From assembly GCF_040581405.1 (NCBI RefSeq), contig NZ_CP137157.1, forward strand, positions 390,001 to 454,000: a stretch of DNA of 64,000 bases, written 5' to 3'. Position 1 is the stretch's first letter, and every line of letters begins with the position of its first letter. The position numbers were made by a program, and so were the translations under genes. A model generated the notes under the pieces. It had not been told where the DNA came from and made no database searches. It saw only the letters and a list, made by a program, of their open reading frames with translations. This document shows, piece by piece, positions 10,559-58,335 of the stretch. This DNA comes from Komagataeibacter sucrofermentans DSM 15973. Its GTDB lineage: Bacteria > Pseudomonadota > Alphaproteobacteria > Acetobacterales > Acetobacteraceae.

Positions 10559-10623
10559 GTTTTGGGCGCTGCCTTTTCCAAAAAGCTTCGAAAGCGCAGC
10601 CCCCAAAAACTTTTATTATTTTA
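10559..10623. repeat. Dispersed intergenic hairpin element, copy A
   Basis: Outer arms GTTTTGGG (10559-10566) and CCCCAAAAAC (about 10601-10610) enclose GCTGC/GCAGC (10568-10572, 10596-10600) and an inner CTTTT/AAAAG pair. The right end is CTTTTATTATTTTA. It shares AAAAAGCTTCGAAA and the AAAAACTTTTATTATTTT tail with copies B-D. It fills the gap between two convergent genes, and its last bases supply the TAA stop of the lipoprotein gene. Confidence 0.7.
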
Positions 10624-10866
10624 CGGGCCGGTAAAGAACGCATCGCCCATGTAATCGGGCGGGCCGCCATCCAGCCCTTCGGCCTCGAAGCCATCATTAT
10701 ACGGGCCGGAATAATACCCCATGCCGTAATTATGTTCATTCCAGTCATTATTCGTAATCATCGGGCCATCCGGGCCTGAAAGCTGCGGGCCTTCAGGCCC
10801 CGCGCAGGCTCCCAGCCCGCCCAGCAATGCCGCCAGCAGGCACAGGGTTGTCTTGCGTGCGGGCAT
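10621..10866 (-). CDS. Small lipoprotein of unknown function
   Basis: An 81-residue product. The N-terminus M-P-A-R-K-T-T followed by a hydrophobic run and L-G-A-C gives a clear lipoprotein signal peptide with a lipobox at about residues 20-23. The mature part is acidic and rich in Gly, Pro, Asn and Tyr (N-N-D-W-N-E-H-N-Y-G-M-G-Y-Y) with no domain I recognise. AGGAA lies 9 bases before the ATG at 10866; an ATG at 10884 overlaps the amidohydrolase stop. It follows the amidohydrolase on the same strand and is probably co-transcribed. The stop falls in repeat copy A. Confidence 0.7.
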   Translation of the reverse strand: MPARKTTLCLLAALLGGLGACAGPEGPQLSGPDGPMITNNDWNEHNYGMGYYSGPYNDGFEAEGLDGGPPDYMGDAFFTGP

Positions 10867-10880
10867 AAAGCGGGTTCCTG

Positions 10881-12278
10881 TCATTTCTGGTGCGTGCTCT
10901 GACCGGGCAGCGGGCCGGAGACGGGCTGGCCACGATGCCAGACCTGCCTGATCCGGTCCAGCGCGGCAGGTTCCACCGTGGGGTTGCCCTGCACCACCAG
11001 CAGGTCGGCCCACTGGCCGGGTGCTATGGTGCCCCGGTCGGTCAGATGCATGAGGTGCGCGGCATCGCCCGTGGCCAGCGTAATGGCCTGTAATGGCGTC
11101 AGCCCGGCCATGATGGACAGGCGCACTTCCCGATGTTCCGCAAAGCCGGGAATGCGCACTGGCGTGGCCCCTGAATCCGTGCCGAACCCAACGGGAATAC
11201 CCGCGCGGTAAACCGCCATGAGGTTCTGCATGTTCATGGCCAGCGCCCGATGCGCGGCGGCTGTCAGGGGCGCTGCCAGCGTTCTGGCCCGCCAGGCGGG
11301 ATCGGCAAATTGCTGGCGCAGCGCGGGCGAAAGGCCGAAGGACAGGAAGGGATCGTCAAGCCATTCCGGGTGTTCGGCAAAGATGTAGCTGGCCTCATCA
11401 AGCGAGAGCGTGGCGATATAGCCCGTACCCTGCGCGCGCATGGCGTTGATCAGCGCGGGGTCTATGGGTCTGTCGCGCACGCCGTGGGCCAGAATGTCCA
11501 CGCCTGCCACCACCAGGGCGCGGGCATCGACGAGGTCATGAATATGGGCGGCAACCCGCTTGCCCCTTGCGTGGGCCTGCGCAATGGCGGCGCGGTAGAT
11601 CGCAGGCCGCATCTTGGGCAGGGGGTGCGCGCCGGGCACGCCATTGCGGAAATCATCAACCCACAGCTTGATCAGATCCGTGCCTTCATCGACCATGCGG
11701 TCGACGGCGGCGCGTGTTTCGGCAGGCGTGGTGGGGCGAAAGACCTGATCGGGGCCGATATGGAACATGTTTTCAGGCGGCACGCCATCGGGCGCGCCAA
11801 TGCCCTGATCCACGCCAAACAGGTCGGCACCGGGGTTGAGGCCCGCATGCTGTTCGCGCCGCAGGTCATCAAACAGCGGCGAGCGGTTCAGCCCGAGTGC
11901 GACCACCGTTGTCACGCCGTATCGTTCATATTGCGCGAGTTCGGCGAGGATATTGGCGCGGGTATAGTTTTCCGCTCCGTTATAGGTGCCGCTGACCTGG
12001 CCTACATGGCTGTGGTCCGAAATCAGCCCCGGCAGCACGCTCAGTCCTGACAGGTCGCGCACGCGGGCATGGGCGGCCGGCTTCAGGCCGTGCCCCGTGG
12101 CGGTGATGTGCCCGTTTTCGATCAGGATATCCATATCGGCCTGCGCAGGCTGTCCCGTGCCGTCAATCACGGTGGCATGGCGCAGCAGCACGGGTCCTGC
12201 CGCCTGGGCATGGGTAGTGCCGCACAGGGCGGGCAGGCTGGCCAGAACGGCCATCAGGGCAGGGCGGATTCGGGGCAT
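10881..12278 (-). CDS. Secreted amidohydrolase (imidazolonepropionase-like metal-dependent hydrolase)
   Basis: A 465-residue amidohydrolase-superfamily protein with a signal peptide (R-I-R-P then a hydrophobic core to A-Q-A-A). The composite domain (V-I-D-G-T-G, L-P-G-L-I) leads into the TIM barrel with S-D-H-S-H-V (the HxH metal motif), I-K-L-W-V-D-D, A-A-H-I-H-D, I-L-A-H-G-V and G-F-G-T-D-S-G with the catalytic Asp. The C-terminus returns to the composite domain (T-I-A-P-G-Q-W-A-D-L-L-V-V). The substrate is unknown; related exported enzymes act on peptides or cyclic amides in the periplasm. Confidence 0.88.
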   Translation of the reverse strand: MPRIRPALMAVLASLPALCGTTHAQAAGPVLLRHATVIDGTGQPAQADMDILIENGHITATGHGLKPAAHARVRDLSGLSVLPGLISDHSHVGQVSGTYNGAENYTRANILAELAQYERYGVTTVVALGLNRSPLFDDLRREQHAGLNPGADLFGVDQGIGAPDGVPPENMFHIGPDQVFRPTTPAETRAAVDRMVDEGTDLIKLWVDDFRNGVPGAHPLPKMRPAIYRAAIAQAHARGKRVAAHIHDLVDARALVVAGVDILAHGVRDRPIDPALINAMRAQGTGYIATLSLDEASYIFAEHPEWLDDPFLSFGLSPALRQQFADPAWRARTLAAPLTAAAHRALAMNMQNLMAVYRAGIPVGFGTDSGATPVRIPGFAEHREVRLSIMAGLTPLQAITLATGDAAHLMHLTDRGTIAPGQWADLLVVQGNPTVEPAALDRIRQVWHRGQPVSGPLPGQSTHQK

Positions 12279-12365
12279 GAAGAACCTCCATCAGGCACGG
12301 GCAATGGCGCAGTGTTGACCATCGGGTGCGCCTGCGTCCATTCACGTCCGTGCCGGTCAGGCGGT

Positions 12366-12695
12366 TCAGGCAGGCAGGCGGGTCGCGCCCCCTTCAATCA
12401 GGTCGGCAAAGGCATCCTGCACGTCGCCACTTTCAGGAAAGCAGACAAGAACGTCATCGCTTTCCGTTTTCGCCTCACGCGCGGGTTTGACCACGCTCTC
12501 CCACTGGCGCGAAAGGGATGTGACCGTGCCGATTTCGGGTTCAAGAAACTGCCACGACCCACCTTTGGCTGTTGACCCCATGACAGTGGTGAGCAGAAAC
12601 ACGCCCGCCTGGTCCGGCAGGGGCGAGGGCACGCGATGAAACTGGTAGAGCGTGCCGGATTTTCCAAACAGCGTGAATGAATTCCACGGTTCCAT
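12366..12695 (-). CDS. Small protein of unknown function
   Basis: A 109-residue protein starting at an ATG with a strong ribosome site (GGGAGGTAA). The N-terminal half has F-G-K-S-G-T-L-Y-Q-F and P-D-Q-A-G-V-F-L-L-T, a G-x-S-G-x-x-Y-x-F pattern that I associate with short proteins of unknown role, which may form a small beta-rich domain. The C-terminus is acidic (D-V-Q-D-A-F-A-D-L-I-E-G-G-A). No signal peptide or membrane segment. It lies between the accessory-looking nuclease/methyltransferase pair and the amidohydrolase and may belong to either; no function can be assigned. Confidence 0.55.
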   Translation of the reverse strand: MEPWNSFTLFGKSGTLYQFHRVPSPLPDQAGVFLLTTVMGSTAKGGSWQFLEPEIGTVTSLSRQWESVVKPAREAKTESDDVLVCFPESGDVQDAFADLIEGGATRLPA

Positions 12696-12941
12696 AAGCC
12701 TGTTACCTCCCTCGGTAGCAGGACAGAGTATGCCATACTTCACCATGATGGTGGAAAGGTGATGCAGGGCCTGCCAGCCATGCGGGCGGGGTGTGAAACG
12801 CGATGGAAAACAGAAGTTTCCGGATGCCGCTTGCTGGCCGCAAACAAGCCATCCGCCAACCATCATGCAGGCAATACGAGGCTGTTCATATCTGGAACGG
12901 GAAGAGTTCATGAAAGCAGGCGGACATGAACATGGCTGCCT
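12696..12941. other. 246-base gap without a recognised gene
   Basis: Between the small unknown protein and the methyltransferase. Base composition is visibly more AT-rich than the flanking core genes. I see no terminator, repeat or ORF that looks coding. Confidence 0.4.
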
Positions 12942-13544
12942 TCACTTCAGGTCAAAAACCGCATTCAGCCATGTTACTGATGGCCGATCTCCCGCTTGGT
13001 CTGTCGTGATGGAACATAACCGTAGCCTCAATGGGGTATTCCTGATCGTATTTTGCAGTTTCTCTTCGGTCATATCAAAAAAATAACGACAGTTTTCAAC
13101 CCTTTCACCTGTTCCTGCCTTGAACGAGGCATAACCCGTCCCTGAGGGTTTCAACGCCTGTGCCAGTCTTGTCAGAGCCGTTTCGAGTTCTGTCGGGGGC
13201 AGATGCAGGAGAGCGGCACAGGCCCAGAAACCATCGAACCGGTTGGTCCAGTCCAGTTCCGCAAACGTCATGTGATGCACCGAAACCGGGTATCCCGCTG
13301 TTCTTTTACGTGCCAGCCTGACCATGGCGGCGCTGCCATCCATGGCGGTAACGCGATACCCGGCACGGGCAAAGGCCAGCGCATCGCGCCCCACTCCGCA
13401 ACCGGCGTCCAGAATATGTCCACCGGGGGGAATATCGGGCAGGAAAAGCCCATGGATCGCCTTCATGTCCACGCTGGCGGTACGCGCCTCAAAATGGCTG
13501 GCGTTGCGGTCATACCATGCCAGCGTATCGGGAACCTCAGTCAT
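12942..13544 (-). CDS. Class I SAM-dependent methyltransferase, partner of the HNH protein
   Basis: A 200-residue Rossmann-fold methyltransferase. Motif I is H-I-L-D-A-G-C-G-V-G-R-D-A-L (about residues 43-56), followed by R-V-T-A-M-D-G-S with the acidic residue that binds the ribose. The motif IV region is F-W-A-C-A-A-L-L-H-L-P-P, as in small-molecule or tRNA-type enzymes, not the N/D-P-P-Y/F/W of adenine or cytosine DNA methylases. Its ATG (13544) overlaps the HNH stop (13537) by 8 bases, so translation is coupled. The substrate is unknown. The pairing with a nuclease suggests a two-gene functional module. Confidence 0.8.
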   Translation of the reverse strand: MTEVPDTLAWYDRNASHFEARTASVDMKAIHGLFLPDIPPGGHILDAGCGVGRDALAFARAGYRVTAMDGSAAMVRLARKRTAGYPVSVHHMTFAELDWTNRFDGFWACAALLHLPPTELETALTRLAQALKPSGTGYASFKAGTGERVENCRYFFDMTEEKLQNTIRNTPLRLRLCSITTDQAGDRPSVTWLNAVFDLK

Positions 13545-14541
13545 GATGCTCCTCGGCTGGTTCCCATGTATGGATCAGGGCGTCACGGGCGATCTGCTGC
13601 CGGGAGCGCAGGAAGCTGCGCCGGGCCTCCTCGCTCTGGCCTGTCTGCAGCATGATGGTTTCGCGCAGCGGGTGATGGCTTTCCACCAGCCATGAGTTGC
13701 GGGCGTGCAGCCGCGCGACAAGCCTGTCGGATGGCACGCTGGCAAACTTGCCACCCTCGCCCCGGTTGCAGTCCCGACAGGCCAGGACCAGATTCCAGAT
13801 TCCGTCAGCATCCGGCATGAGGCCACGTTCCCGCAGCATCCACGGAAAGAAATGGTCTACGTCCGCTGCTGCCAGTGGCATGTCGCACCCGCAATAGAAA
13901 CAGTGGCCTTTCTGGTAGCCATTCAGCGATGGGCGGACGCGGCTGAGCGAGACCCGTCGCACTTTCTGTACAAACAGTTCCTGCGTTTCGCTGTCCAGTT
14001 GCACGGCCACATTGGCGCGCGGAAGGTCATACTGCCATGCACCTTCCACCAAGCGCCATCGGGCTTCCGTTTCATCCGCCAGATCATCGGCCCGGAACCG
14101 TTCGCGCAATTTATAGAGTTCATCCGTCAGGCGGATGGCTGGCGGTCCGCCTGCCGTTCGTTCATCCACGAAAAAGCGGTGCGGCACCGGACCCTTGCCG
14201 ACCATGTGGAAGGCATCGATCACGTTGACAAACCCCAGCTTGGTCGTGGCATCGCGCAGTTGCGTTGCGGTGATTTCGTCGCGGTTGAATGCGCGACAGG
14301 TATCCAGAAACCGACTGGATCGCGATGTGCCCTGCCGGTCCACACGGGCCAGGTGCTGGCACAGATGCCGCGAAAACGGTTCCGCCAGATCGCTCAGCAG
14401 GACTCTGGTCGTAGACCGCTCCGCCATTTCCAGCAGGCTTTGCGCGAGCGCGAATTTATAGGACGCGACATTGCGCCCGAACAGCACGACCGCACGCCAT
14501 GATGTATCCGGTTTCGGGCAATCTGAAAGAAAAGGGGTCAT
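13537..14541 (-). CDS. HNH endonuclease-domain protein
   Basis: A 334-residue protein. The C-terminal third carries an HNH/beta-beta-alpha-metal nuclease with a structural zinc site: C-F-Y-C-G, then V-D-H-F-F-P-W, then I-W-N-L-V-L-A-C-R-D-C-N-R-G-E-G-G-K. The N-terminal 200 residues (S-W-R-A-V-V-L-F-G-R-N-V-A-S-Y-K-F-A-L-A) form a conserved domain that I cannot assign. The ATG at 14541 has no clear ribosome site; longer in-frame starts run into poor coding sequence. It is the first gene of a coupled pair with the methyltransferase, next to tRNA-Glu, a place where accessory or defence genes often sit. The target is unknown. Confidence 0.8.
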   Translation of the reverse strand: MTPFLSDCPKPDTSWRAVVLFGRNVASYKFALAQSLLEMAERSTTRVLLSDLAEPFSRHLCQHLARVDRQGTSRSSRFLDTCRAFNRDEITATQLRDATTKLGFVNVIDAFHMVGKGPVPHRFFVDERTAGGPPAIRLTDELYKLRERFRADDLADETEARWRLVEGAWQYDLPRANVAVQLDSETQELFVQKVRRVSLSRVRPSLNGYQKGHCFYCGCDMPLAAADVDHFFPWMLRERGLMPDADGIWNLVLACRDCNRGEGGKFASVPSDRLVARLHARNSWLVESHHPLRETIMLQTGQSEEARRSFLRSRQQIARDALIHTWEPAEEHHD

Positions 14542-14919
14542 GCTGCGCAACCAGACAGGGAAAAAGGCTGGACAGTGCAGGGTTGATGATGGGGCCAGCA
14601 CATTGGGCCAGTTTTGCCCGGCCAGTAACCGCGACGCAAGGTGAGGGCCGTCATCCTGATTGTTCTGATGCGGGCCTGAGTGTGTCAGGTTACGCCATCT
14701 GGCATCATGGCGATGGGCCGCGATGCCACACACCCTTCGGCAGCGGCCTGCCCGTGGCGGGATCAATATTTGTTTTCTGTGATTCGCTTATGCGAGGCCC
14801 TGATATCACCGCGTGTTTCCTGCCTGACGGAAACCCGTCTGGTTCAGGATCCAATAAACTGGAAATCAGGAAATTACCTGTAATCAGCCAAGACCCGCAG
14901 TAAACTGCGGTAAAGTAGC
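14542..14919. other. 378-base gap between HNH gene and tRNA-Glu
   Basis: No gene with convincing codon use is visible. The part near the tRNA is more AT-rich than the core genome. A six-base-stem hairpin lies at 14895-14910. No integrase remnant or second copy of the tRNA 3' end was found by eye. Confidence 0.4.
14895..14910 (-). terminator. Short hairpin after tRNA-Glu
   Basis: CCGCAG (14895-14900), loop TAAA, CTGCGG (14905-14910), a perfect six-base stem beginning 10 bases beyond the tRNA 3' end. There is no T-run, so it is a processing or weak termination hairpin. Confidence 0.4.
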
Positions 14920-14995
14920 TGGCGTCCCGTACGGGATTCGAACCCGTGTTGCCGCCGTGAAAGGGCGGTGTCCTAGGCCTCTAGACGAACGGGAC
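14920..14995 (-). tRNA. tRNA-Glu (anticodon TTC)
   Basis: 76 bases including an encoded CCA. Acceptor stem GTCCCGT/ACGGGAC with discriminator G, anticodon stem CCGCC/GGCGG around loop CTTTCAC (anticodon TTC), and T-loop GGTTCGAATCC. All arms pair. The accessory-looking HNH/methyltransferase patch lies on its 3' side. Confidence 0.97.
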
Positions 14996-15065
14996 TAAAG
15001 GCGTGAGGGGTAACTATCCCGCCACGGGGGGCGGGTCAACCCCCCTTATGCAAAAAAGACTGAAA

Positions 15066-16913
15066 TTATTGAGCGATCGCCACGTCGCGGATGAAGAATG
15101 TGGCCGATGTCCGCCCGTTCCAGCTCTCGGCCCGCAGCCAGCCTGCAAGGTGCAGCGGGGGCGCATCGCGGTCTTCCAGCACCGGGGCGATGGGGCTTTC
15201 ATTGGCGCGGAACACCAGCGCCTTGAGCCGTGGGCCCCGGCCTTCGCCCTGGAGTGTGAGGCGCAGGGTATTGCCCTCGCGCCCGATCCGCTCGGCATAG
15301 GCCACGCGCACGCGGGGCAGGGCGATGAGCGGTTCGTCATTGCCCGGGCCAAAGGGGGCGAGGCGATCCATGTCGGTTGCCAGCGCCACGTCGGCGGCGG
15401 CCACGTTCACCACGGCATCAATGGTCAGGTCCACCGCATCGGGCAGATCGGCGGCGGAGGCGAGGTAGCGGTCAAGAAAGTCGTGCAGTGCCGGAACCCC
15501 TTCGGCGGGCAGCCCAAAGCCCGCTGCCATGGCATGGCCGCCGCCCGATGTCAGCAGCCCTGCCTGGCGTGCTGCAATGATGGCGCCGCCCAGATCCTGC
15601 CCCGGCACGGAGCGGGCCGAGCCCTTGACGCTGCCATCATCAAGTTCCGCGCCAACCAGCACGGGGCGATTGAATTTTTCCTTTATCCGCCCGGCCACGA
15701 TGCCCACCACGCCGGGGTGCCAGTCGCGCCCGCTCAGCACCAGCACGGCATGCCCCTGTTCGCGCTGGGCGGCGGCGAGTTCCATGGCGCGGTCCAGAAT
15801 GCCGGCTTCCACGCTCTGGCGGTTATGGTTGACGGAATTGAGCTTGTCGGCCAGCGCCTGTGCCTCGGCGGCATCATGTGACAGCAGCAGCCGCAGCCCC
15901 AGCCCGGAATCGGCAATGCGCCCCCCGGCATTGATGCGCGGCCCAAGCGCAAACCCGCAGGTAAAGGCGGAGAGCGGGTCACGCGCGCCCGCGGCCTCAA
16001 GCAGGGCTGCAAGCCCCGTGCGCCCGCGCCGCGCCATGATGTTCAGCCCATGAATCACGAAGGCGCGGTTCAGCCCGGTCAGCGGCATCACGTCGCACAC
16101 GGTGGCCAGGGCCACCAGGTCGAGGCTGTTCTTGAGTTGCGGGTCGGGATGGGTGTCAAACCACCCTTCGCTGCGCAGCAGGCGCGTGGTGGCTCCGGCT
16201 GCCAGAAAGGCCACCGCTGCCGCGCAGATGCTGCGCAGGCCGGAGGGGCAGTCGGGCCGGTTGGGGTTGACCGTGGCCAGCACGCGGGGCAACGCGCCCT
16301 GCACCTGATGGTGATCGAGCACGATCACATCGCAACTCTGGCTGACATGCTCCAGCACATCGACCGCCGCCGTGCCGCAGTCGAGGCAGACGATGAGGCT
16401 GGCACCCTGCGCCTGCAGGGCTTCAATGGCGGGAATGTTGGGGCCGTAGCCCTCCGTCATGCGGTCGGGGATGTGGGTGAGCACCGTGCAGCCCTGCGTG
16501 CGCAGGAAGGCGGTCAGGAGTGCAGTGGAACAGGCGCCATCCACGTCATAATCGCCAAACAGCCCGATGGTCTCGCCATTGCGGATGGCGCGCGCCATGC
16601 GCTCGGCGGTCACGTCCATGTCCACCAGCGTCGAGGGATCGGGCAGCATCTGGCCCATGACGGGCCTGATGTAGCTTTCCACCTGGTCGGGGCTGATATG
16701 ACGCAGCGCGAGCATGCGGCCCACGATCTCGGGCAGGCCGGTCTGCTGGGCAATGGCCATGCCCATGCGGTCGGCATGGCTGGCCTGGCTGCCCGCCCGC
16801 CATGTCCATCGCCGCCCTGTCACGCTGTGGGTCACCCCCAGCACGGCGGGCACGGCTCCGTCCTGTGCCAGTTGTGCGGCAGGGGCGGGCGATGTCAGGT
16901 CGGTAACAGGCAC
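15066..16913 (-). CDS. recJ: Single-stranded-DNA-specific exonuclease RecJ
   Basis: A 615-residue 5'-3' ssDNA exonuclease of recombination and mismatch repair. The DHH phosphoesterase motifs are present: G-D-Y-D-V-D-G (about 120-126), C-L-D-C-G (177-180), D-H-H-Q (200-203), then the DHHA1 domain with G-G-G-H-A-M-A-A-G-F-G. A C-terminal OB-fold follows. Length fits the family. The start is GTG at 16913 with AAGGAC upstream. It lies 72 bases downstream of hom on the same strand and is likely co-transcribed with alaC and hom. Confidence 0.95.
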   Translation of the reverse strand: MPVTDLTSPAPAAQLAQDGAVPAVLGVTHSVTGRRWTWRAGSQASHADRMGMAIAQQTGLPEIVGRMLALRHISPDQVESYIRPVMGQMLPDPSTLVDMDVTAERMARAIRNGETIGLFGDYDVDGACSTALLTAFLRTQGCTVLTHIPDRMTEGYGPNIPAIEALQAQGASLIVCLDCGTAAVDVLEHVSQSCDVIVLDHHQVQGALPRVLATVNPNRPDCPSGLRSICAAAVAFLAAGATTRLLRSEGWFDTHPDPQLKNSLDLVALATVCDVMPLTGLNRAFVIHGLNIMARRGRTGLAALLEAAGARDPLSAFTCGFALGPRINAGGRIADSGLGLRLLLSHDAAEAQALADKLNSVNHNRQSVEAGILDRAMELAAAQREQGHAVLVLSGRDWHPGVVGIVAGRIKEKFNRPVLVGAELDDGSVKGSARSVPGQDLGGAIIAARQAGLLTSGGGHAMAAGFGLPAEGVPALHDFLDRYLASAADLPDAVDLTIDAVVNVAAADVALATDMDRLAPFGPGNDEPLIALPRVRVAYAERIGREGNTLRLTLQGEGRGPRLKALVFRANESPIAPVLEDRDAPPLHLAGWLRAESWNGRTSATFFIRDVAIAQ

Positions 16914-16985
16914 GGGCAGGTCCTTGTGCAGGGGGCCGGGATCAGCGACGGGGCGCGGATGGACGCGCGCCCACCCGCGCCATTT

Positions 16986-18356
16986 CTAGCCCGCGTCGAT
17001 GCGGATCAGGGCAGGTTCGTCCAGCACGGCAGGCAGTTCCGCAATGTGGTGCAGGGCGTGCTGCATGGCCGCTTCGTTGGTCTTGTGGGTCAGCAGCACC
17101 AGCGGCACGGCATGGGTGCCGTCGGGGCGGGTTTCATGCGCATCGGCATGCTGGAGCATGCTGCGCAGCGACACGCCATTGTCACGCAGCACGGCGGTGA
17201 TGTCGGCAATCACGCCGGGGCGGTCTTCCACGTTCAGGCGCAGGTAGTATTCGCCCATGAACGATTTGGCGGGCAGGGCCACGGCCTGCGTCAGGCTGTC
17301 GGCATCGCAGCCCCATACGGGAATGGCGGCGCCGCGCGCGATGTCGATCAGGTCGGCGCACACGGCGGTGGCCGTAGGCCCTTCGCCAGCACCCCGGCCC
17401 TCAAGCATCAGGCGGCCGACAAACGCGCCCTCCGCCACCACGGCGTTGAACACGCCATTGACCTGCGCGATCGAGGCATCCTGCGGCACAAGGCACGGAT
17501 GCACGCGGGCCTCGATGCCGTTTTCATGCTGGCGGGCAATGCCCAGCAGCTTGATGCGGTAGCCCATCTTGCGCGCGAACTGCAGGTCAAGCGCGCCAAT
17601 GCGGCGGATGCCCTCGATATAGACGGAGGCGAACACCACCGGCCGCCCGAAGGCCAGCCCCGCAAGGATGGCCAGCTTGTGGGCGGTGTCGATCCCATCG
17701 ACATCGGTGGAGGGATCGGCCTCGGCATAGCCCAGCTTCTGGGCATCGGCCAGGATCTCGGCAAAGTCGCGGCCGGTCTCGTGCATCACGCTCAGGATGT
17801 AGTTGCACGTGCCGTTGAGGATGCCGCCAATTTTAAGGATGCGGTCCGCCGCCAGCCCTTCGCGCACGGTCTTGATGGCGGGAATGCCGCCGGCCACCGC
17901 CGCCTCGAACATCAGCGGCACGCCTGCGGCCTGCGCCGTGCAGGCCAGTTCCGCGCCGTGGATGGCGATCAGCGCCTTGTTGGCGGTCACCACCGGCCTG
18001 CGGTTTTCCAGCGCGCGGGTTACGGTCAGGCGGGCAGCGCCCTCGGCGCCGCCAATCAGTTCGGCCACCACGTCCACATTGGGGTGGGTGGCGAGTTCCT
18101 CGGGCGTGTCGCACCAGGCAACGCCTGCCAGGTCAACCCCACGGTCGCGCGTGCGGTCGCGCGCGCTGACGGCGGTCACCACCAGTTCGCGCCCGGCGCG
18201 GGCGCGGATCAGGGCCGCGTTCTCGCGCAGCAGTTTCATAACGCCAGCGCCAACCGTGCCCAGCCCTGCAATGCCGATGCGCAGGGGCGGTTTGGGTGCG
18301 GGCGAAGAAGAAGGTTTAGAAGTCATCTGTTTTCCGTCAACCGAGTGGGCCGTCAT
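16986..18356 (-). CDS. hom: Homoserine dehydrogenase
   Basis: A 456-residue NAD(P)-dependent enzyme that reduces aspartate semialdehyde to homoserine for threonine and methionine synthesis. The N-terminus has the dinucleotide motif G-I-A-G-L-G-T-V-G-A-G. The catalytic domain includes G-I-L-N-G-T-C-N-Y-I-L and A-D-P-S-T-D-V-D-G-I-D-T-A-H-K-L with the active-site Asp and Lys. A C-terminal ACT domain (Y-Y-L-R-L-N-V-E-D-R-P-G-V) suggests feedback control by threonine. The ATG at 18356 overlaps the stop of the upstream aminotransferase (ATGA); an ATG at 18326 has a better ribosome site. Confidence 0.96.
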   Translation of the reverse strand: MTAHSVDGKQMTSKPSSSPAPKPPLRIGIAGLGTVGAGVMKLLRENAALIRARAGRELVVTAVSARDRTRDRGVDLAGVAWCDTPEELATHPNVDVVAELIGGAEGAARLTVTRALENRRPVVTANKALIAIHGAELACTAQAAGVPLMFEAAVAGGIPAIKTVREGLAADRILKIGGILNGTCNYILSVMHETGRDFAEILADAQKLGYAEADPSTDVDGIDTAHKLAILAGLAFGRPVVFASVYIEGIRRIGALDLQFARKMGYRIKLLGIARQHENGIEARVHPCLVPQDASIAQVNGVFNAVVAEGAFVGRLMLEGRGAGEGPTATAVCADLIDIARGAAIPVWGCDADSLTQAVALPAKSFMGEYYLRLNVEDRPGVIADITAVLRDNGVSLRSMLQHADAHETRPDGTHAVPLVLLTHKTNEAAMQHALHHIAELPAVLDEPALIRIDAG

Positions 18357-44767: not shown

Positions 44768-44770
44768 CCC

Positions 44771-48397: not shown

Positions 48398-48420
48398 CAC
48401 CCTTGCGGGTGTAGAATGCA

Positions 48421-48454
48421 AAAGCCCGGAGGGATTACCCTCCGGGCTTTTTTT
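48421..48454 (+). terminator. Strong rho-independent terminator of infC
   Basis: AAAGCCCGGAGGG (48421-48433), loop ATTA, CCCTCCGGGCTTT (48438-48450), then a T-run. A 13-base perfect stem. Confidence 0.95.
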
Positions 48455-48460
48455 ATGGCT

Positions 48461-48534
48461 AAAAGCTTTAGAAGAACGCCGCCTTTTTGAAAAAAAAGCG
48501 GCATCCAAAAACTTCTATTTTTATCAATGCTTTA
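48461..48534. repeat. Dispersed intergenic hairpin element, copy B
   Basis: AAAAGCTTTAGAAGAACGCC, then GCCGC (48478-48482) with CTTTTT, a short loop and AAAAAGCGGC (to 48502), then CCAAAAACTTCTATTTTTAT. The left outer arm seems replaced by the infC terminator. It lies between infC and the SIMPL gene, and its right end reaches the SIMPL stop at 48532. Confidence 0.7.
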
Positions 48535-49616: not shown

Positions 49617-49620
49617 GATG

Positions 49621-51207: not shown

Positions 51208-51307
51208 GGCTGCCCGCGCCGTGGCCATCCACGCCCGCGCTGCCCGGCATGGGCCGTGCCGTGCCGGTGCAGTCGTGCCGCCGGGGGCTGGCATGTGCCG
51301 TAAGCGA

Positions 51308-51362: not shown

Positions 51363-51366
51363 CCTG

Positions 51367-52047
51367 TTACTCGGCACGCAGCATGTACCCCGCATTGCGG
51401 ATGGTATGGATGAGCGGCGCGCCGAAGGGCTTGTCCACCTTCTGGCGCAGGCGCGAAACATGCACGTCGATCACGTTGGTCTGCGGGTCGAAATGGTAGT
51501 CCCACACGCCCTCGAGCAGCATGGTGCGGGTCACGACCTGGCCTGCGTGGCGGGCAAGATATTCCAAAAGGCGGAATTCACGCGGCTGAAGGTCGATCTT
51601 CTGCCCCGCCCGGCGCACCGTGCGCGAGAGCAGGTCGATCTCGAGATCGGCCACTTCCAGCTTGGTCTGGGGCGCGCTTTCGGTGCGGCCCCGGCGGCCC
51701 AGCGCCTCGACGCGGGCCAGCAGTTCGCTGAAGGCGAACGGCTTGGTCACGTAGTCATCGCCGCCCGCCTTGAGGCCCTGCACGCGGTCATCCACATCCG
51801 CCAGCGCCGAGAGCAGCAGCACGGGGGTGGTGTTGTTCTGTGCGCGGATGGTCTCGAGCAGGCGCACGCCATCAATGCCGCCGGGCAGCATGCGATCGAG
51901 TATGATCAGGTCGAACTTTTCGCTCACGGCCATGAACAGGCCGTCCTTGCCGTTATCGGTCATCTCGACCAGGTGGCCTGCTTCCTTCAGGCCCTTGGCC
52001 ACGAAAGAGCGGACGGTGGGGTCATCTTCAACAACAAGAATATGCAA
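51367..52047 (-). CDS. OmpR/PhoB-family response regulator
   Basis: A 226-residue regulator. The receiver has the acidic pair E-D-D (7-9), phospho-acceptor Asp51 in L-I-I-L-D-R-M-L-P and Lys102 in Y-V-T-K-P-F. The DNA-binding winged helix (about 130-225) ends with N-V-I-D-V-H-V-S-R-L-R-Q-K-V and I-R-N-A-G-Y-M-L. It pairs with the downstream kinase and lies 33 bases after the HtrA-type protease gene, which is a likely target. Confidence 0.95.
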   Translation of the reverse strand: MHILVVEDDPTVRSFVAKGLKEAGHLVEMTDNGKDGLFMAVSEKFDLIILDRMLPGGIDGVRLLETIRAQNNTTPVLLLSALADVDDRVQGLKAGGDDYVTKPFAFSELLARVEALGRRGRTESAPQTKLEVADLEIDLLSRTVRRAGQKIDLQPREFRLLEYLARHAGQVVTRTMLLEGVWDYHFDPQTNVIDVHVSRLRQKVDKPFGAPLIHTIRNAGYMLRAE

Positions 52048-52080
52048 AACGGCCTCGTGTCGGTTGGGGCGGGGTCTTGG

Positions 52081-53238
52081 TCAGTCGTCCATGTCTTCAT
52101 CGGGGCGGTGGCCTACGCAGGCCTCCAGGCTCATGGTATCGTGGCGGCGGCGGATATGCAGCGTTACGGTGGAAGCGGGCCGCTTCGCCGCGATCGAGCG
52201 GATCAGCATGCGCGCGGTGTCGATCGGCTCGTCATTTACCGCCGTAATGACATCGCCAATGCGCAGATGCGCCTTCATGGCCGGGCCGTCGCGGTCGATT
52301 CCCACGATCTGCACGCCGCCATGCCCCGCGCCGTCAGCCAGTGTAACACCAAGCCAGCCGCGGTCTATATGCCCGTTATGGCGCAGTTCCTCCACGATGG
52401 GGGCCACGATCTCCGATGGCAGGCCAAAGCCTATGCCCACCGAACCACCCGTGGGCGAGACGATGGCCGTGTTCACCGCCACCACCTGCCCGCCCAGATT
52501 GAAGGACGGGCCGCCGGAATTGCCGGGGTTGATGGGCGCATCGATCTGGAAAAAGTCATCGAACGGGCTGGTGCCAATGTCGCGCCCGCGCGCCGATACG
52601 ATGCCTGCGGTCACGCTCGAGCCCAGCCCGAACGGGTTGCCTGCCGCCATGATCCAGTCACCGATATTGACCAGCCTGCTGTCGCCCCACGGCACGAAGG
52701 GCATGGGGTGGGGCGCATGGATCTGGATGACCGCGATATCGGTCAGGTCGTCGCTGCCCACAAGCCGGGCGGGGAACTCCGTGCCATCGGAGAGCGAGAC
52801 GGTAATCTGGTCAGCCCCCCCCACCACATGCGCGTTGGTCACGATCACGCCGCCGGGGTCGATCAGGAAGCCCGAGCCCGCGCCCAGCATTTCCTCGCCA
52901 TGGGCGCGCATGCGCTCGCGGAATTTATGCTCGAACGGCGTGCCTTTCACGCTTGGCGGCAGGGGCTGGCGGGTGGCGGCCTGATGGCTGTCCTGCGCCT
53001 GCGATACGGCGATGTTCACCACGGCGGGGCCAACCTGGCGCACCAGTGGCGCGAAGGTCAGCGGCCCGGTCTGCACCACCGGCGGCACGGGGGGCGCGAA
53101 CAGCGAGGCACTGGCAGGCACGGTGGGCGCTGGCGCCGCCACATCCTGCGCCAGCGCCTCCGTTCCCGCGCCGGTCATGCCCAGCAGCAGGATCGGTAGC
53201 ATGCGTGCAGCCGGACGGGCCGTGGCGATCCATGTCAT
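52081..53238 (-). CDS. Periplasmic HtrA/Deg-type serine protease with one PDZ domain
   Basis: A 385-residue protein with a signal peptide (T-A-R-P-A-A-R, a hydrophobic core, E-A-L-A-Q). The trypsin-like domain has the triad His in V-T-N-A-H-V-V, Asp in D-L-T-D-I-A-V and Ser in P-G-N-S-G-G-P. One C-terminal PDZ domain (R-G-W-L-G-V-T-L-A-D, I-G-D-V-I-T-A-V-N) follows, as in DegS or short DegQ. It probably degrades misfolded envelope proteins. Start ATG 53238 is a choice; ATG 53274 and 53301 are in frame, and the longest form would begin in repeat copy C. Confidence 0.9.
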   Translation of the reverse strand: MTWIATARPAARMLPILLLGMTGAGTEALAQDVAAPAPTVPASASLFAPPVPPVVQTGPLTFAPLVRQVGPAVVNIAVSQAQDSHQAATRQPLPPSVKGTPFEHKFRERMRAHGEEMLGAGSGFLIDPGGVIVTNAHVVGGADQITVSLSDGTEFPARLVGSDDLTDIAVIQIHAPHPMPFVPWGDSRLVNIGDWIMAAGNPFGLGSSVTAGIVSARGRDIGTSPFDDFFQIDAPINPGNSGGPSFNLGGQVVAVNTAIVSPTGGSVGIGFGLPSEIVAPIVEELRHNGHIDRGWLGVTLADGAGHGGVQIVGIDRDGPAMKAHLRIGDVITAVNDEPIDTARMLIRSIAAKRPASTVTLHIRRRHDTMSLEACVGHRPDEDMDD

Positions 53239-53381
53239 GCCGGGGGACGGAAGAATGCGTTCATGATGAAGCATGTTATCTGAAAAAAGCGGCAATGCCA
53301 TGTCTGCATGGCACGGTAGGGGCTGATGCATGCGTTTTTCGGGGCTGTCTGACAAACCCGCGCCCCGCGGCTGAAAACCAC

Positions 53382-53474
53382 AAGACGTTTTTGGTGAAGC
53401 TTTTTTCAAAAAGCTTCGAAAAAATACTGCTTTCCCGGGGGAAAGCGGTACCCGGAATCTTTTATTATTTTAAT
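53382..53474. repeat. Dispersed intergenic hairpin element, copy C
   Basis: Left arm ACGTTTTTGG, then a perfect hairpin GAAGCTTTTT-TC-AAAAAGCTTC (53396-53417), then a second hairpin GCTTTCCC (53429-53436) with GGGAAAGC (53439-53446), then CCCGGAATCTTTTATTATTTTA. Compared with copies B and D the second stem has C/G pairs where they have T/A, yet pairing is kept. It lies between hrpB and the HtrA gene, 8 bases from the hrpB stop. Confidence 0.75.
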
Positions 53475-53481
53475 CTGGTTC

Positions 53482-56040
53482 CTACGACGGACGGCGCGGG
53501 CGTGGTGGCGGCGGACTGGCTGTTGCCGGGTTTTCGGGCCAGTCGTGGCGGGGGTAGCGCCCGCGCATGTCGCGCCGCATGTCCGCCCATGACCCCGCCC
53601 AGAACCCGGCAAGGTCCGCCGTGATTGCCTGTGGCCTGCCAGCGGGCGAGAGCAGGGCGATGCGCAGGTCGAGCCTGCCATCGGCCAGGCGCGGGGTCTG
53701 GGTCACGCCATAGAAGGTCTGGGCGCGGGCGGCGGCAACCGGCACGGGCTGCAGGTAATCGATCGCGGCGCGGCCACCGGGCAGGTCCAGATGGGTGGGC
53801 AGCATGCGGTCCAGCCATTTCAGGCTGGCATGGTCCATGGTGGCGCGCAGCATGGCCAGCAGGTCCATCTCCGCCAGCGCGGACAGGCGGTTTACCCCCG
53901 CCAGCCACGGGGCGAGCCATGTTTCGGTGGTGGTGGCGAGTGCTGCATCCGACAGGTCGGGCAGATCGGGGCGGTCAAGCTGCGTGCGGGCCATCTCCAC
54001 CCGTGCCTGAAGCTGGCGGCAGGCATCGGGCCACGTCAGCGTGGCAGCCAGGTTCTGCGCCGCCTGCGCACAGAGCAGGGCGCAGACCTCATCGGGGCTG
54101 GCAGTCACCGTGCGGTCGCGCAGCACGAGGTTGCCCAGCCGCAGCCTGCGCCGCGCCAGCACGCTGCCCGTGGTGGTGTCGAGCGTGGTTTCCACCTGTT
54201 CCTTCGCCCGCGCTAGCAGGGTCTGCGGCAGGTTGTCGCGCTCCAGTGGCGCGGCAAGGCAGATCTCGGCGGCCTTGCGCACATGCATGCCCGCTACCGC
54301 CAGCAGGGTGCTGCGGGCCAGTTCATCAGTTTTGGAAAGTCGGGCGCTGCCACCTCCCGCCAGCCGGAAGGAGCCGACATCGCCGCGCGCCTGCGCCACC
54401 CGGTCGGGGAAGGCGGCGGCAATCAGGGCGGCAGGATCGCCCGTAGCCTCGATATCGCGGCCCAGCCCCAGCCGCCTGCGATACTGCCGGGCGGCATGGC
54501 GGATGCGCGAGAGTGCTGCCCGGTCGGCATCGGGGTGGTCGCCGCCCGCGATCAGCTCCAGGCGCAGGCGGATATCGGCAGGCGCTGCGGGGGGCGCGCC
54601 ACGGCTGCCGCCTGCGGGGCGGCGGGGGCGCAGCGGGTCGCGTTCCTCCAGCAGGGCGGCGATATCGGCGGCCATGGCGCGTTCGGCTGGCGTGCGGGCG
54701 GCCAGCATCATGGCGGCAAGGCGGGGATGCGCGCCCAAAGCGGCCATGCGCGCGCCCTCATGGGTAATGCGGCCTGCCTCATCAAGCGCGCCAAGGGCCT
54801 CAAGCAGGCTGCGCCCGGCCTCGAACGCGCCATTGGGGGGCGTGTCGGGGAAGGGCAGGTCGGCAGGCTCCGTGCCCATCGCCTCCTGCCACGCGGCGGC
54901 ATCAAGCCGCAGGCCGGTCAGTTCGGCCTCCATCATTTCAGGCTGGTCGTGCGGCGGCATGGCGCGGGTGGTCATTTCGGTCCAGAGCCGGATGGCGATG
55001 CCGGGCGCCACGCGGCCTGCGCGGCCCGCGCGTTGCTGCGCGGCCGCACGCGAGATGCGTACCGTATCGAGGCGGGTCAGCCCGGTGCCCACATCCAGCC
55101 GGGGCACGCGGCGGAACCCGCCATCGACCACAATGCGCACGCCCGGCACGGTGAGCGATGTCTCGGCAATGGAGGTGGACAGGATCACCCGCCTGCGCCC
55201 GGCGGGGTGGGGGGTGAGGGCCAGATCCTGCTCGGCGGGGGGGAGCTCGCCATAAAGCGGCAGCACATCGGCATCGATGCCCGCAAGCGCTGCGCGGGCG
55301 CGGTGGATCTCGGCCACGCCGGGCAGGAAGGCCAGCACGTCGCCTTCATCGTGCGCAATGGCGGTGCGGATGGTGGCGGCCATGGCATCGGGCAGGTCGC
55401 GGCGGTGCACGAGGTCGCGCGTGGCGTGGCGGATTTCCACAGGGAACATCCGGCCTTCGCTTTCCACCCGCTCGGCATTCATACGGGTGGCGAGTGCTGC
55501 GCCATCCATGGTGGCGGACATGGCCACCAGCTTCAGTTCCGGCCGCAGGCTGCGCTGCAGGTCGAGGCAGAAGGCCAGCGCCGCATCGGCATCGACCGAG
55601 CGTTCATGGATTTCATCAAAGATCACGCAGGCCACGCCATCAAGCGTGGGGTCGGACAGCAGGCGGCGCACCAGCAGCCCCTCGGTAATCACCTCGATGC
55701 GCGTGCGCTCCGAACGCGCGCCATCGAGCCGGGTGCGGTAGCCCACCAACCCGCCAACCGGCTCATTCACCAGTTCCGCCATGCGGGTGGCGGCAGCGCG
55801 GGTGGCCAGCCTGCGCGGCTCGAGCATGAGGATGCGCCCATCGCCCCGCCATGGTGCCTGTAGCAGGGCGAGCGGTACCAGCGTGGTCTTGCCCGCACCC
55901 GGCGGGGCCACCAGAACGGCGTTGGATGTGCGCGCCAGCGCCGCCTGAAGGGCAGGCAGGGCCTGAGCCACGGGCAGGGCGGCTGCGTTCTGGGCCACAA
56001 GGGCGTGCAGCCGGTTTTGCAAGGTCGGGTCGAAAGCCAT
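53482..56040 (-). CDS. hrpB: ATP-dependent helicase HrpB
   Basis: An 852-residue DEAH/RHA-type helicase. Walker A is A-P-P-G-A-G-K-T-T-L (about 45-54), then L-E-P-R-R-L-A-T-R-A, F-D-E-I-H-E-R (D-E-I-H box), M-S-A-T-M-D-G, S-T-S-I-A-E-T-S-L-T and Q-R-A-G-R-A-G-R. The C-terminal 350 residues are the HrpB-specific domain. Its cellular role is not well settled; it is usually a single, non-essential gene. It is divergent from the DsbD-like gene, with 99 bases between. Confidence 0.95.
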   Translation of the reverse strand: MAFDPTLQNRLHALVAQNAAALPVAQALPALQAALARTSNAVLVAPPGAGKTTLVPLALLQAPWRGDGRILMLEPRRLATRAAATRMAELVNEPVGGLVGYRTRLDGARSERTRIEVITEGLLVRRLLSDPTLDGVACVIFDEIHERSVDADAALAFCLDLQRSLRPELKLVAMSATMDGAALATRMNAERVESEGRMFPVEIRHATRDLVHRRDLPDAMAATIRTAIAHDEGDVLAFLPGVAEIHRARAALAGIDADVLPLYGELPPAEQDLALTPHPAGRRRVILSTSIAETSLTVPGVRIVVDGGFRRVPRLDVGTGLTRLDTVRISRAAAQQRAGRAGRVAPGIAIRLWTEMTTRAMPPHDQPEMMEAELTGLRLDAAAWQEAMGTEPADLPFPDTPPNGAFEAGRSLLEALGALDEAGRITHEGARMAALGAHPRLAAMMLAARTPAERAMAADIAALLEERDPLRPRRPAGGSRGAPPAAPADIRLRLELIAGGDHPDADRAALSRIRHAARQYRRRLGLGRDIEATGDPAALIAAAFPDRVAQARGDVGSFRLAGGGSARLSKTDELARSTLLAVAGMHVRKAAEICLAAPLERDNLPQTLLARAKEQVETTLDTTTGSVLARRRLRLGNLVLRDRTVTASPDEVCALLCAQAAQNLAATLTWPDACRQLQARVEMARTQLDRPDLPDLSDAALATTTETWLAPWLAGVNRLSALAEMDLLAMLRATMDHASLKWLDRMLPTHLDLPGGRAAIDYLQPVPVAAARAQTFYGVTQTPRLADGRLDLRIALLSPAGRPQAITADLAGFWAGSWADMRRDMRGRYPRHDWPENPATASPPPPRPRRPS

Positions 56041-56139
56041 ATCTTCATCTTATGGCGTCGGGCATGGTGGCGGGGCAATCCTTGCCGTGCTGCGTGGCTG
56101 CGTTTTTCCTGATCTCCTGTTTGTGGTGGAGTACTGTCC

Positions 56140-58233
56140 GTGCCCTTTCTGTGGCTTGTGTCGATCCTGTGCATGCTGGTCACGGCCCTGCCGGTTGCCC
56201 GTGCCGCCGAGAGCGACCCCGTAACCTCGACCCGCGCCACCGCCACGCTGGTCACGGATGATGATACCTACAGCCCCGGTCGCGCCCTGCATGTGGGGCT
56301 GCGGCTGCAACTTGCCCCCGGCTGGCACACCTACTGGCTCAACCCCGGCGATGCAGGTGATGCGCCCACCCTTGAGGTGAGCGCGCAGGGCGGGGCCACC
56401 GGGCAGGCCAGCACCATTGAATGGCCAACCCCGCGCGTGCTGCATGACGGGCCGCTGACATCCTACGCCTATACCGGCGACGTGCTGTTGCCTGTCACCT
56501 TTACCCCCGCAGCGGGCGAAGGCGATGGTCCGCTCACGCTCAGCGCCGTGGCGGACTGGCTGGTCTGTGCCGAGGTGTGCGTGCCCGAGCACGGCACGTT
56601 CAGCCTGAGCCTGCCGCGCGGAGCGCCCCGGCCTTCGGCGCAGGCGCCCGCATTTGCACAGGCTGCTGCGGCGCGCCCCGTGGCCTCGCCCTTTGCGGCA
56701 AAGGTCTCGGTAGAAGGGATCATGCAGTTGCGCGGGCCTGAACTTTCGGCTGACAGCGTGCGCGATGCCTGGTTCATGCCCGAGGTGGCGGGCGCGATCG
56801 ATCAGGATGCCCCGCAGGCGGTGACGGTGCATGATGGCGTGGTGCAGCTTGCGCTGCATCCGGGGCCGGAATTCCATGGCGGTGCGAAGCTGTCCGGCAT
56901 CGTGGTGCTGCGTGACGGCATGGGGCGCGAGCGCGGGTTGCAGGTCAGGCCGGAGCCGGGGGCGGTAACAGCCCTTGCCGCCCCCGTGGCGGCACCGAAC
57001 ACGCGCGCCAATGTGGGCGTGCTGTTGCTCATGGCGTTTGCGGGCGGCGTGATCCTGAACCTCATGCCCTGCGTCTTTCCCGTGCTGGCCATGAAGATCC
57101 TGGCCCTTGAGCGCATGGCGCGCGGGGCGCGGGGGGCTGCGCTGACGGGTGCTGCGGCTTATGGCGCGGGCGTGGTGGTGTCCTTTGTCGCACTTGGCGG
57201 CGCTATTGCGGCATTGAGGGTGGCAGGGCACGAGGCGGGGTGGGGGTTTCAGTTCCAGTCCGTGGGGTTCGTGACCGTTATCTGCCTGCTGCTGTTTGCC
57301 GTGGCCCTCAACCTGCTGGGCGTGTTCACCATCGGGCTGCGGCTGATGGGGGTGGGGGGCAACCTGCCCGCCCATGCCGGTGATTTCCTGACCGGGGTGC
57401 TGGCGGTGGTGCTGGCCTCGCCGTGCACGGCGCCGTTCATGGGGGCAGCGGTGGCGGCGGCCCTTGCGGCCTCGCCGGTGATCGGAGTGGTGGTCTTTGC
57501 CGCCCTCGGGCTGGGACTGGCCGCACCTTACCTTGTGCTGGCAGCCATGCCCGGCCTGCTGGCATGGCTGCCCAAACCGGGAAAGTGGATGGAGACGGTG
57601 CGCAACCTGCTGGCCCTGCCAGTACTGGCCACCTGCGTGTGGCTGGGCTGGGTGGCGAAGCTGGAAGGCGGCATGGATGCCCTCACCCTGCTGGGCATGG
57701 GGCTGGTGCTGGTGGCCATTGGCTGCTGGAGCCTGCGGCGTGCCAACCGGCTGGACCTGCGCGATGCCATGGCGGGGCGGGCCGGGCTGTACCGCGCGGT
57801 GGCGACATTAAGCCTGCTGGCGGCTTTTGTGGGGGGGGCCGTGCTGCCACCCGCCACGCTGCATGAGCGGGGAGCGGCGCGCGTGGCCGATGGCAGTTCC
57901 GCCTATTCCCCCACGCGCCTGGCCGAATTGCGCAGGCAGGGCCGACCTGTCTTTGTGGACATGACGGCGGCGTGGTGCATCTCATGTCTGGTCAATGAGC
58001 GTGTGGCCCTGTCGAGCCAGAGCGTGCAGGCAGCCTTTGCCAAACGCGGCATTATCTACATGAAAGGCGACTGGACCCTGCGCGATGCGGCGATTACCGC
58101 CTTTTTGCAGGCCCATGGGCGCGACGGAGTGCCGTTTTACGCCTATTACCCTGCGCATGGGGCGGAAGTGATCCTGCCTGAAATCCTCACCCCCGCCATC
58201 GTGCTGGAGATGACCGCGCCCGCGGGTAAGTGA
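56140..58233 (+). CDS. DsbD/ScsB-family thiol:disulfide reductase
   Basis: A 697-residue inner-membrane electron carrier that brings reducing power to the periplasm. Signal peptide 1-23. The N-terminal periplasmic part has a Cys pair C-A-E-V-C (143, 147). Eight or so membrane helices carry M-P-C-V-F-P-V-L (Cys311) and A-S-P-C-T-A-P-F-M (Cys429), the redox pair of the DsbD core. The C-terminal thioredoxin-like domain has A-A-W-C-I-S-C-L-V-N-E (613, 616). All three Cys pairs are present. Size and the N-terminal domain resemble ScsB more than DsbD. Start is GTG 56140 with GGAG upstream. No partner is adjacent. Confidence 0.92.
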   Translation: MPFLWLVSILCMLVTALPVARAAESDPVTSTRATATLVTDDDTYSPGRALHVGLRLQLAPGWHTYWLNPGDAGDAPTLEVSAQGGATGQASTIEWPTPRVLHDGPLTSYAYTGDVLLPVTFTPAAGEGDGPLTLSAVADWLVCAEVCVPEHGTFSLSLPRGAPRPSAQAPAFAQAAAARPVASPFAAKVSVEGIMQLRGPELSADSVRDAWFMPEVAGAIDQDAPQAVTVHDGVVQLALHPGPEFHGGAKLSGIVVLRDGMGRERGLQVRPEPGAVTALAAPVAAPNTRANVGVLLLMAFAGGVILNLMPCVFPVLAMKILALERMARGARGAALTGAAAYGAGVVVSFVALGGAIAALRVAGHEAGWGFQFQSVGFVTVICLLLFAVALNLLGVFTIGLRLMGVGGNLPAHAGDFLTGVLAVVLASPCTAPFMGAAVAAALAASPVIGVVVFAALGLGLAAPYLVLAAMPGLLAWLPKPGKWMETVRNLLALPVLATCVWLGWVAKLEGGMDALTLLGMGLVLVAIGCWSLRRANRLDLRDAMAGRAGLYRAVATLSLLAAFVGGAVLPPATLHERGAARVADGSSAYSPTRLAELRRQGRPVFVDMTAAWCISCLVNERVALSSQSVQAAFAKRGIIYMKGDWTLRDAAITAFLQAHGRDGVPFYAYYPAHGAEVILPEILTPAIVLEMTAPAGK

Positions 58234-58253
58234 CCCGCGCAGGTGCGGCAGAC

Positions 58254-58335
58254 AAAAGTTTTTGGCAAATCTTTTTTCAAAAAGCTTTGAAAGAACACCG
58301 CCTTTTTAAAAAAAGCGGCGCCCGGAAACTTTTGC
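58254..58335. repeat. Dispersed intergenic hairpin element, copy D
   Basis: Left arm AAAAGTTTTTGG (58254-58265), hairpin 1 CTTTTT-TC-AAAAAG (58271-58284), hairpin 2 CCGCCTTTTT/AAAAAGCGG (58298-58318), right arm GGAAACTTTT (58324-58333). The outer arms pair as AAAAGTTT/AAACTTTT, so the whole can form a three-way junction. It lies between two convergent genes, 7 bases from the minus-strand stop. Confidence 0.75.

Follow-up and report, generated by a model that had tools for sequence, protein, structure and literature searches.

Intergenic palindromic repeats and two-way terminators have been described in several bacterial groups, and here we compare with them a repeat found in a 64,000-nucleotide stretch (hereafter, the window) of Komagataeibacter sucrofermentans DSM 15973, positions 390,001 to 454,000 of contig NZ_CP137157.1 (C1), in a searched genome of 3.44 Mb and five contigs (labelled G000). 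We consider it fairly probable that this is a non-coding palindromic repeat family of the Acetobacteraceae that settles at the 3' ends of genes and works as a bidirectional intrinsic terminator.

Repetitive extragenic palindromes (REPs) are found chiefly in gaps whose flanking genes are convergent or run in one direction, and downstream of coding sequences (PMC3733652). The REPs and bacterial interspersed mosaic elements (BIMEs), with their GTAG and CGTC families and their link to REP-associated tyrosine transposases (RAYTs), resemble our repeat as high-copy intergenic palindromes with convergent and tandem placement (PMC3733652). However, REPs are 20-40 bp long, tagged and accompanied by Y1 transposases, whereas this element is a hairpin junction of ~85 bp without a conserved tag. 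The Y1 (RAYT) transposase domain Y1_Tnp (PF01797) was found in none of 19 genomes of the genus, with a control positive in 5 of 14 well-known genomes, and no conserved GTAG or CGTC end was seen by eye in a 40-copy consensus; together with the size, these results ruled out membership of the REP/RAYT systems. CGTC repeats are reported missing in the Acetobacteraceae (PMC3733652).

Bidirectional intrinsic terminators share with the repeat an A tract, a stem and a T tract serving both convergent strands, as well as compensatory stem evolution (PMC5381666). They are classically a single GC-rich hairpin, whereas in this repeat family the junction is branched and its closing outer stem is A/U-rich. 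The uptake-signal pairs of Neisseria and the Pasteurellaceae are likewise self-dispersing repeats that act as gene-end terminators (PMC1852404), but are 9-11 nt long in inverted pairs, while this element is one unit of 85 bp. The Bacillus cereus repeats bcr1-bcr3 (MITE-like, that is, resembling miniature inverted-repeat transposable elements), bcr10 and bcr18 are also intergenic families; some bcr repeats are MITE-like, some have conserved secondary structure, and they are often transcribed in untranslated regions (PMC3446304). They belong to other organisms and are set apart here by description, not by sequence. Pneumococcal BOX elements are modular. BOX and SPRITE are chromosomal MITE-like repeats, SPRITE being terminator-like (PMC10969869); by description rather than sequence, the present element differs in a fixed outer stem that holds two to several exchangeable arms.

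The consensus of 40 copies gave a repeat unit of ~85 bp that runs from one outer arm (ATAAAAGTTTTTGG) through hairpin 1 (TGAAGCTTTTTTCAAAAAGCTTC), a linker near GAAAGAAC and hairpin 2 (GCCGCCTTTTTGAAAAAAGGCGGC) to the second outer arm (ACCCAAAAACTTTTAT). The outer arms, paired over as many as 14 bp (86.5% of cells in the 40-copy alignment), provide the terminal inverted repeats typical of MITEs; the end sequence, AAAAGTTTTTKG, is the terminus that an insertion sequence sharing the element's ends would carry. At ~85 bp the element could not encode a transposase and has no coding capacity. One good copy (L019) folded into a three-way junction on either strand at approximately -36 kcal/mol (z ~-6.2).

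A T tract follows the stem directly, as in intrinsic terminators, and it does so on both strands. At least five T residues were present in the first eight positions of 49 of 58 right tails and 49 of 62 left tails, compared to 5% of intergenic windows, and T was frequent over ~12 positions past the outer stem. These tails came from 67 copies scoring at least 60 bits, leaving out those that could not be placed by regular expression, and their initial positions belong to the repeat itself.

The placement of the copies was determined relative to gene calls from our own codon-usage caller, not compared with the annotation. In 353 kb of C1 (C1:2595001-2947970, 295 called genes) there were 44 merged copies at E values up to 0.01: 30 convergent, 12 tandem, one divergent and one in a weak open reading frame (ORF). 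That section has 48 convergent, 199 tandem and 47 divergent gaps, and 30 of the 48 convergent gaps were occupied; the distribution of the 43 intergenic copies differed from that of intergenic bases per gap type (chi-square P ~4e-9). Copies inside genes were not equally frequent, the weak ORF holding the only one of the 44. The 100 distinct copies in all analysed stretches, most of which had been chosen for holding copies, comprised 66 convergent, 29 tandem, one divergent and four at an edge. A stop codon lay within 25 bp of 58 of the 66 convergent copies, and both stops did so for 28, while 22 of the 29 tandem copies were within 16 bp of the upstream stop.

Similar placement was observed in other genera. 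In 220 kb of an Acidocella genome (G202), 13 of 19 copies occupied convergent gaps (37 such gaps), six tandem gaps (135) and none divergent gaps (36), and five of the 13 convergent copies overlapped both stop codons (distances -5 to -2). A second Acidocella genome (G156) had two convergent and four tandem copies among the six of seven matches that were classed, one at the end of a stretch being left out. The 122 listed copies of a sample collected by the outer-arm pattern were 69 convergent, 35 tandem, two divergent, one inside a gene and 15 at an edge. All eight Gluconobacter copies printed lay 7-16 bp from both stops, although several are probably one locus across species.

The structure has been kept by compensatory evolution. 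Across genera the outer arms are near-constant (AAAAGTTTTTTGG...CCAAAAAACTTTT), whereas the hairpin bases vary with pairing kept (GTTC/GAAC, CTTC/GAAG, GCCGC/GCGGC, CTCCC/GGGAG and TGGCCCC/GGGGCCA). For 76 distinct arm pairs from 13 genomes, 2.80 of the four positions 2-5 were paired, versus 1.21 (sd 0.12) after shuffling of partners. As the copies outside G000 had been collected with a structure model, which favours paired arms, the test was repeated on copies whose detection made no use of structure: the 46 distinct arm pairs among the 125 matches of the outer-arm pattern sample gave 2.76 versus 1.24, and G000 copies found by a sequence profile gave 2.19 versus 1.37, with none of 5000 shuffles as high in either case. 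Since shuffling mixes hairpin classes in these two comparisons and the copies are related, the cautious figures are those within classes of G000 copies, where the observed pairing was reached by 24 of 5000 shuffles for hairpin 1 and 14 of 5000 for hairpin 2; the covariation anticipated from the window copies is therefore significant. A regular expression for T-run/A-run hairpins detected two in 95 of the 125 pattern matches, one in 24 and none in six.

RNAalifold returned no structure for an alignment that included flanks and degenerate copies, and a trimmed 40-copy alignment with the structure stated by hand was used in its place. This alignment had ten pairs with two-sided change versus 5.9 after shuffling (5 of 500 shuffles as high) and a covariation score reached in 6 of 500 shuffles, so that covariation was modest; the share of paired cells, 90.6% versus 90.3%, was not above that of shuffles (78 of 500).

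Contrary to what had been supposed from the window, the element is not confined to one lineage; its range is a bacterial family, the Acetobacteraceae, in parts of which it occurs. The search for further copies in G000 gave at least 150 matches at E 0.01, and all 19 genomes of a genus sample carried the element (31 to at least 150 matches each). In larger samples (those above 40 genomes were searched with stricter filters), matches occurred in 32 of 200 genomes and 18 of 102 genera of an even family sample, and in 40 of 200 genomes of an order sample, all 40 within the same family. A class sample matched in one of 289 genomes, G000 itself, and in none of the 288 others, at least three of which belong to the same family. 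Scanning named genomes for the outer arms yielded at least 120 stretches, and the named carriers among the matches listed were Komagataeibacter, Novacetimonas, Gluconacetobacter entanii, Acetobacter, Gluconobacter, Acidocella facilis and uncultured Acetobacteraceae. Arm-pattern matches in metagenome-assembled genomes named Bacteroidetes (L219) and Selenomonadaceae (L258) lacked the inner hairpins and were rejected, as was one in a Clostridia assembly (L240, 5852-5928) with matching outer arms and a different inner fold, probably by chance; these three were excluded from the context count of the pattern sample and included in its arm test.

The sequence-only reading had reported four copies in the window, in one orientation. 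All four scored with R1, a covariance model based on 40 copies from the genome that include C and D of the window, and all matches were on the plus strand. The copies and their neighbours, the latter identified by Pfam, are as follows.

Copy A, 10552-10617, plus strand: R1 score 30.6 bits; degenerate, hairpin 1 mostly missing.
Neighbours of copy A, convergent: RNase_T-type exonuclease gene, 9643-10542, plus strand; gene at 10621-11013, minus strand.
Classical terminator after infC, 48420-48456, plus strand: AAAGCCCGGAGGGATTACCCTCCGGGCTTTTTTT, separate from the repeat, seen in the sequence.
Copy B, 48461-48519, plus strand: left arm missing; hairpin 2 and right arm kept.
Neighbours of copy B, convergent: infC (plus strand) and a SIMPL-domain gene (minus strand), with the classical terminator alongside.
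Copy C, 53380-53466, plus strand: R1 score 81.8 bits; full length; hairpin 2 is TTTCCC/GGGGAAA.
Neighbours of copy C, both on the minus strand: copy C is 3' of an hrpB-type helicase gene and upstream of an HtrA-like protease gene.
Copy D, 58251-58336, plus strand: R1 score 84.7 bits; full length.
Neighbours of copy D, convergent: dsbD-type gene (plus strand) and a second gene (minus strand).

The R1 match of copy B was 48439-48519 (30.0 bits), its initial ~20 bases being the tail of the infC terminator, and copy A has no CCGC stem. As A and B are incomplete, the CCGC...GCGG stem and three-way junction attributed to all four copies apply fully to C and D only. Folded as single strands, the four copies gave z values of -1.8 to -3.8. 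Measured from the ends of the model matches, the distance of 0-9 bases claimed from a minus-strand stop was correct for A (3) and D (5) and slightly exceeded by B (12) and C (15). The compensatory change proposed for copy C (TTTT/AAAA to TCCC/GGGA) is present, but in that single copy; orthologues in relatives showed, by eye, T·G intermediates at the changed stem position.

Two syntenic regions of G000 and 18 relatives were compared, with the sequences judged by eye. The tandem gap g3|g4 was filled in 14 genomes and empty in five, in which the next leader began almost directly after the stop. At the copy C locus the element was present in seven of 19 genomes (partial in G006), ten had a gap of 35-38 bp without it, G010 had a 97-bp gap without it, and G012 was not comparable. 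These occupied and empty orthologous sites are those expected of a MITE, and agree with the suggestion in the sequence-only reading of a small non-autonomous element. The g3|g4 insert is ~145 bp, longer than the repeat, with boundaries that permit a 0-2 bp target site duplication. Another conserved dyad, near GGGCCGTTT...AACGGTGCC, is present in the insert (L138-L152) at its stop-distal side, and more than the repeat alone may have been inserted as a unit. In the window (53301-53481) the hrpB-htrA gap is ~180 bp with copy C, and the hrpB stop is TAG, whereas the ten relatives with the 35-38 bp gap have TAA. The element seems to have arrived together with an altered hrpB 3' end.

At other gaps the element was replaced, truncated or flipped. 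In the convergent gap g5|g6, 18 of 19 genomes had the element, whether full, partial or decayed, and in seven its orientation was opposite; G010 had a plain GC hairpin there instead. Gap g12|g13 was filled by a full element in G000, G018 and G006, retained one hairpin in G007, G016 and G017, and held an element or piece next to a classical terminator in G014, G001, G011, G008 and G002; G003 had a classical terminator alone, G013 a different hairpin, G010 other GC-rich sequence and G005 a 15-bp gap, four genomes not being comparable. The copy D locus had seven full elements, two truncated, one decayed, six absent and three not comparable, and five of the six element-free relatives held another GC-rich dyad, strong in G009, G004 and G012 (z -3.1 to -5.4) and weaker in G013 and G010 (z -2.0 and -1.7), with none in G005. 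At the copy B locus the infC terminator was present in all 19 genomes, while the element was absent in four and a fragment only in two.

Taken over all copies, orthologous and paralogous identities were 0.80 and 0.78. Among 32 copies of 75 bp or longer from the close clade, those at the same locus were more alike than unrelated ones (0.86 versus 0.80, permutation maximum 0.83), which argues for vertical inheritance with fast change, and these identities gave no sign of concerted evolution. Copies within G038, G194, G136 and G161 had mean identities of 97, 91, 97 and 94%, respectively. Since six high-scoring G000 copies were also 91% alike, recent amplification is suggested for G038 and G136 only, and perhaps G161. 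In G038 and G136, both uncultured Acetobacteraceae, these similar copies are found in tandem and other gaps, not in convergent ones.

A selfish MITE-like repeat without host function, which inserts near stops or is tolerated there while insertions upstream of genes or inside operons are purged by selection, and whose palindromes are kept by transposition or template switching, would account for the clean occupied and empty sites at g3|g4 and copy C, the terminal inverted arms, the near-identical copies of G038 and G136, and the tandem, divergent and intragenic copies in four genomes (below). We nevertheless consider it unlikely, as the T-rich tails extend past the stem on both strands, same-locus copies were inherited across species while changing yet remaining folded, and other hairpins stand at some gaps where the element is missing.

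Convergent placement, contact with stop codons, A and T tracts on both sides and the substitution of hairpins at some gaps led us to 3'-end formation on both strands, the function anticipated in the sequence-only reading, with which the placement agrees. None of the three outcomes said there to refute it, namely a lack of further copies, covariation short of significance and copies as common inside genes, was obtained. We infer that RNA polymerase terminates at the element and that transposition spreads the copies. Whichever gene it comes from, the polymerase would transcribe the two hairpins first (in Acidocella, sometimes three or more), and the outer stem's second arm (GUUUUUGG/CCAAAAAC) would then close the junction right before the U-rich tract, the A-rich 5' side serving as the U tract of the opposite strand. 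Based on this geometry, we suggest that closure of the outer stem before the T tract is the terminating event, the inner hairpins presumably bringing the outer arms together.

Several observations weigh against the terminator reading. The stem adjoining the T tract, GUUUUUGG/CCAAAAAC, has 3 G-C pairs of 8 and is mostly A/U, and the GC-rich hairpin lies ~10 nt off, so that the 40-copy consensus lacks the short GC-rich hairpin adjoining the T tract that marks intrinsic terminators. The replacement dyads at the copy D gap have no clear T tract. In E. coli, terminators near a stop codon (tR2) were repressed by ribosomes (PMC4824070); here the T tract is ~85 nt past the stop codon and may thereby escape such interference, although the 5' outer arm would still be near the stop. 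In G038, G194, G136 and G161, mostly uncultured, none of 21 classed copies was convergent (15 tandem, two divergent, two inside genes, two at an edge), these copies being from best matches on short stretches with only four convergent gaps. Asymmetry between G·U and A·C, taken as a sign of RNA-level selection, was null: the transcribed strand of tandem copies had no excess of G·U (41 versus 31, P 0.29). Wobble pairs without RNA-strand asymmetry would suit an element acting as DNA, whether as a cruciform or as a binding site for protein, that takes up supercoiling between convergent genes in the way suggested for E. coli REPs and gyrase, as would the convergent preference and the equal folding of both strands of L019. 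However, the T-rich tails and the many tandem copies directly past a stop codon make such a role very improbable.

The relationship to classical terminators also bears on the terminator reading. According to our own simple, unvalidated scanner, 17 of the 30 occupied convergent gaps in the 353-kb section had no other terminator-like hairpin; counting against that reading, 13 of the 30 also held a classical terminator, and 12 of the 18 unoccupied gaps had none, six having one. The element and classical terminators are therefore not complementary, and mutual exclusion was not found. The classical terminators in those 13 gaps and at copy B, together with the strong structure at 3' ends, would favour a protector or processing site, with transcripts ending downstream (by Rho or a second terminator) and being trimmed by exonucleases to the branched structure. 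We regard this as improbable, because the two-sided T-rich tails would be superfluous and 17 of the occupied gaps have no other terminator-like hairpin.

Returning to the two-way terminator, a more far-reaching version is tentatively conceivable, in which the repeat is a mobile, modular system of gene endings built on multi-way junctions and found family-wide. On landing at the 3' end of a gene, it could supply the stop codon or codons of one or both convergent genes together with a terminator for each strand; with the outer frame fixed and the arms exchanged and re-paired during the divergence of lineages, a single repeat might have become responsible for 3'-end formation in a large fraction of convergent pairs. 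Some copies in the Acidocella genomes G202 and G156 contain an unrelated third hairpin in the middle and some carry more arms, the model matches shown spanning 90 to 192 bases, as if the arms were modules. Strong third hairpins were seen, e.g., at L156 1553-1687 and L165 13975-14107, and hairpins inserted between A and T runs at L167 52-221 and L172 5325-5466.

Rfam gave only two tRNAs in the window and no family for the repeat, and three matches at E up to 1 in seven copy-bearing loci, all under the gathering score. The acetic acid genera asked for are unmentioned in the main text of PMC12306157 (RepRanger), PMC10969869 (a MITE review), PMC2267715 and PMC4666352, and a Gluconobacter oxydans RNA-seq paper (PMC5756330) has no mention of hairpins, palindromes, repeats or convergent. 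Six sequence strings of the element had no occurrence, and no earlier description was recognisable from titles and abstract starts among the matches listed, in a searched literature that excludes most subscription journals, so that absence from print is not established. There is strong evidence for the structure and gene-end placement of what we regard as a new, well-marked form of the bacterial intergenic palindromic repeats; its two-way terminator role, judged from sequence, is likely but unproven.

If the terminator reading is true, a mobile repeat gives matched ends to both genes of a convergent pair, in a group of hosts exploited for making vinegar and bacterial cellulose and for industrial oxidations. 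The occupied, empty, flipped, truncated and replaced sites are many natural replicates of one 3'-end element in related genomes, across which the gain and loss of function of such elements could be followed. Komagataeibacter and Gluconobacter would also gain a class of candidate two-way terminators, and the copies could serve to test whether a branched RNA is able to terminate transcription when an A/U-rich stem closes it.

Some minor observations concern the distribution of copies. The 150 matches listed for G000 comprised 149 on C1 and one on C2, no pair of the 149 being closer than 100 bp; within the 353-kb section this genome-wide list has 37 places compared to the 44 merged copies of the full scan. 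Per 250 kb of C1, the matches listed numbered 24, 17, 10, 12, 7, 2, 4, 3, 10, 19, 20 and 21, with high density near either end of the contig and few matches at 1.25-2.0 Mb. A plasmid search with copy D gave two partial matches, both on Komagataeibacter saccharivorans plasmids. Lastly, approximately three of the 12 convergent gaps with neither element nor terminator look, by eye, like decayed copies. Decayed remains with AAGCTT and CCGCC pieces were seen by eye in convergent gaps that have no scored copy, at C1:2598695, 2600131 and 2605272.

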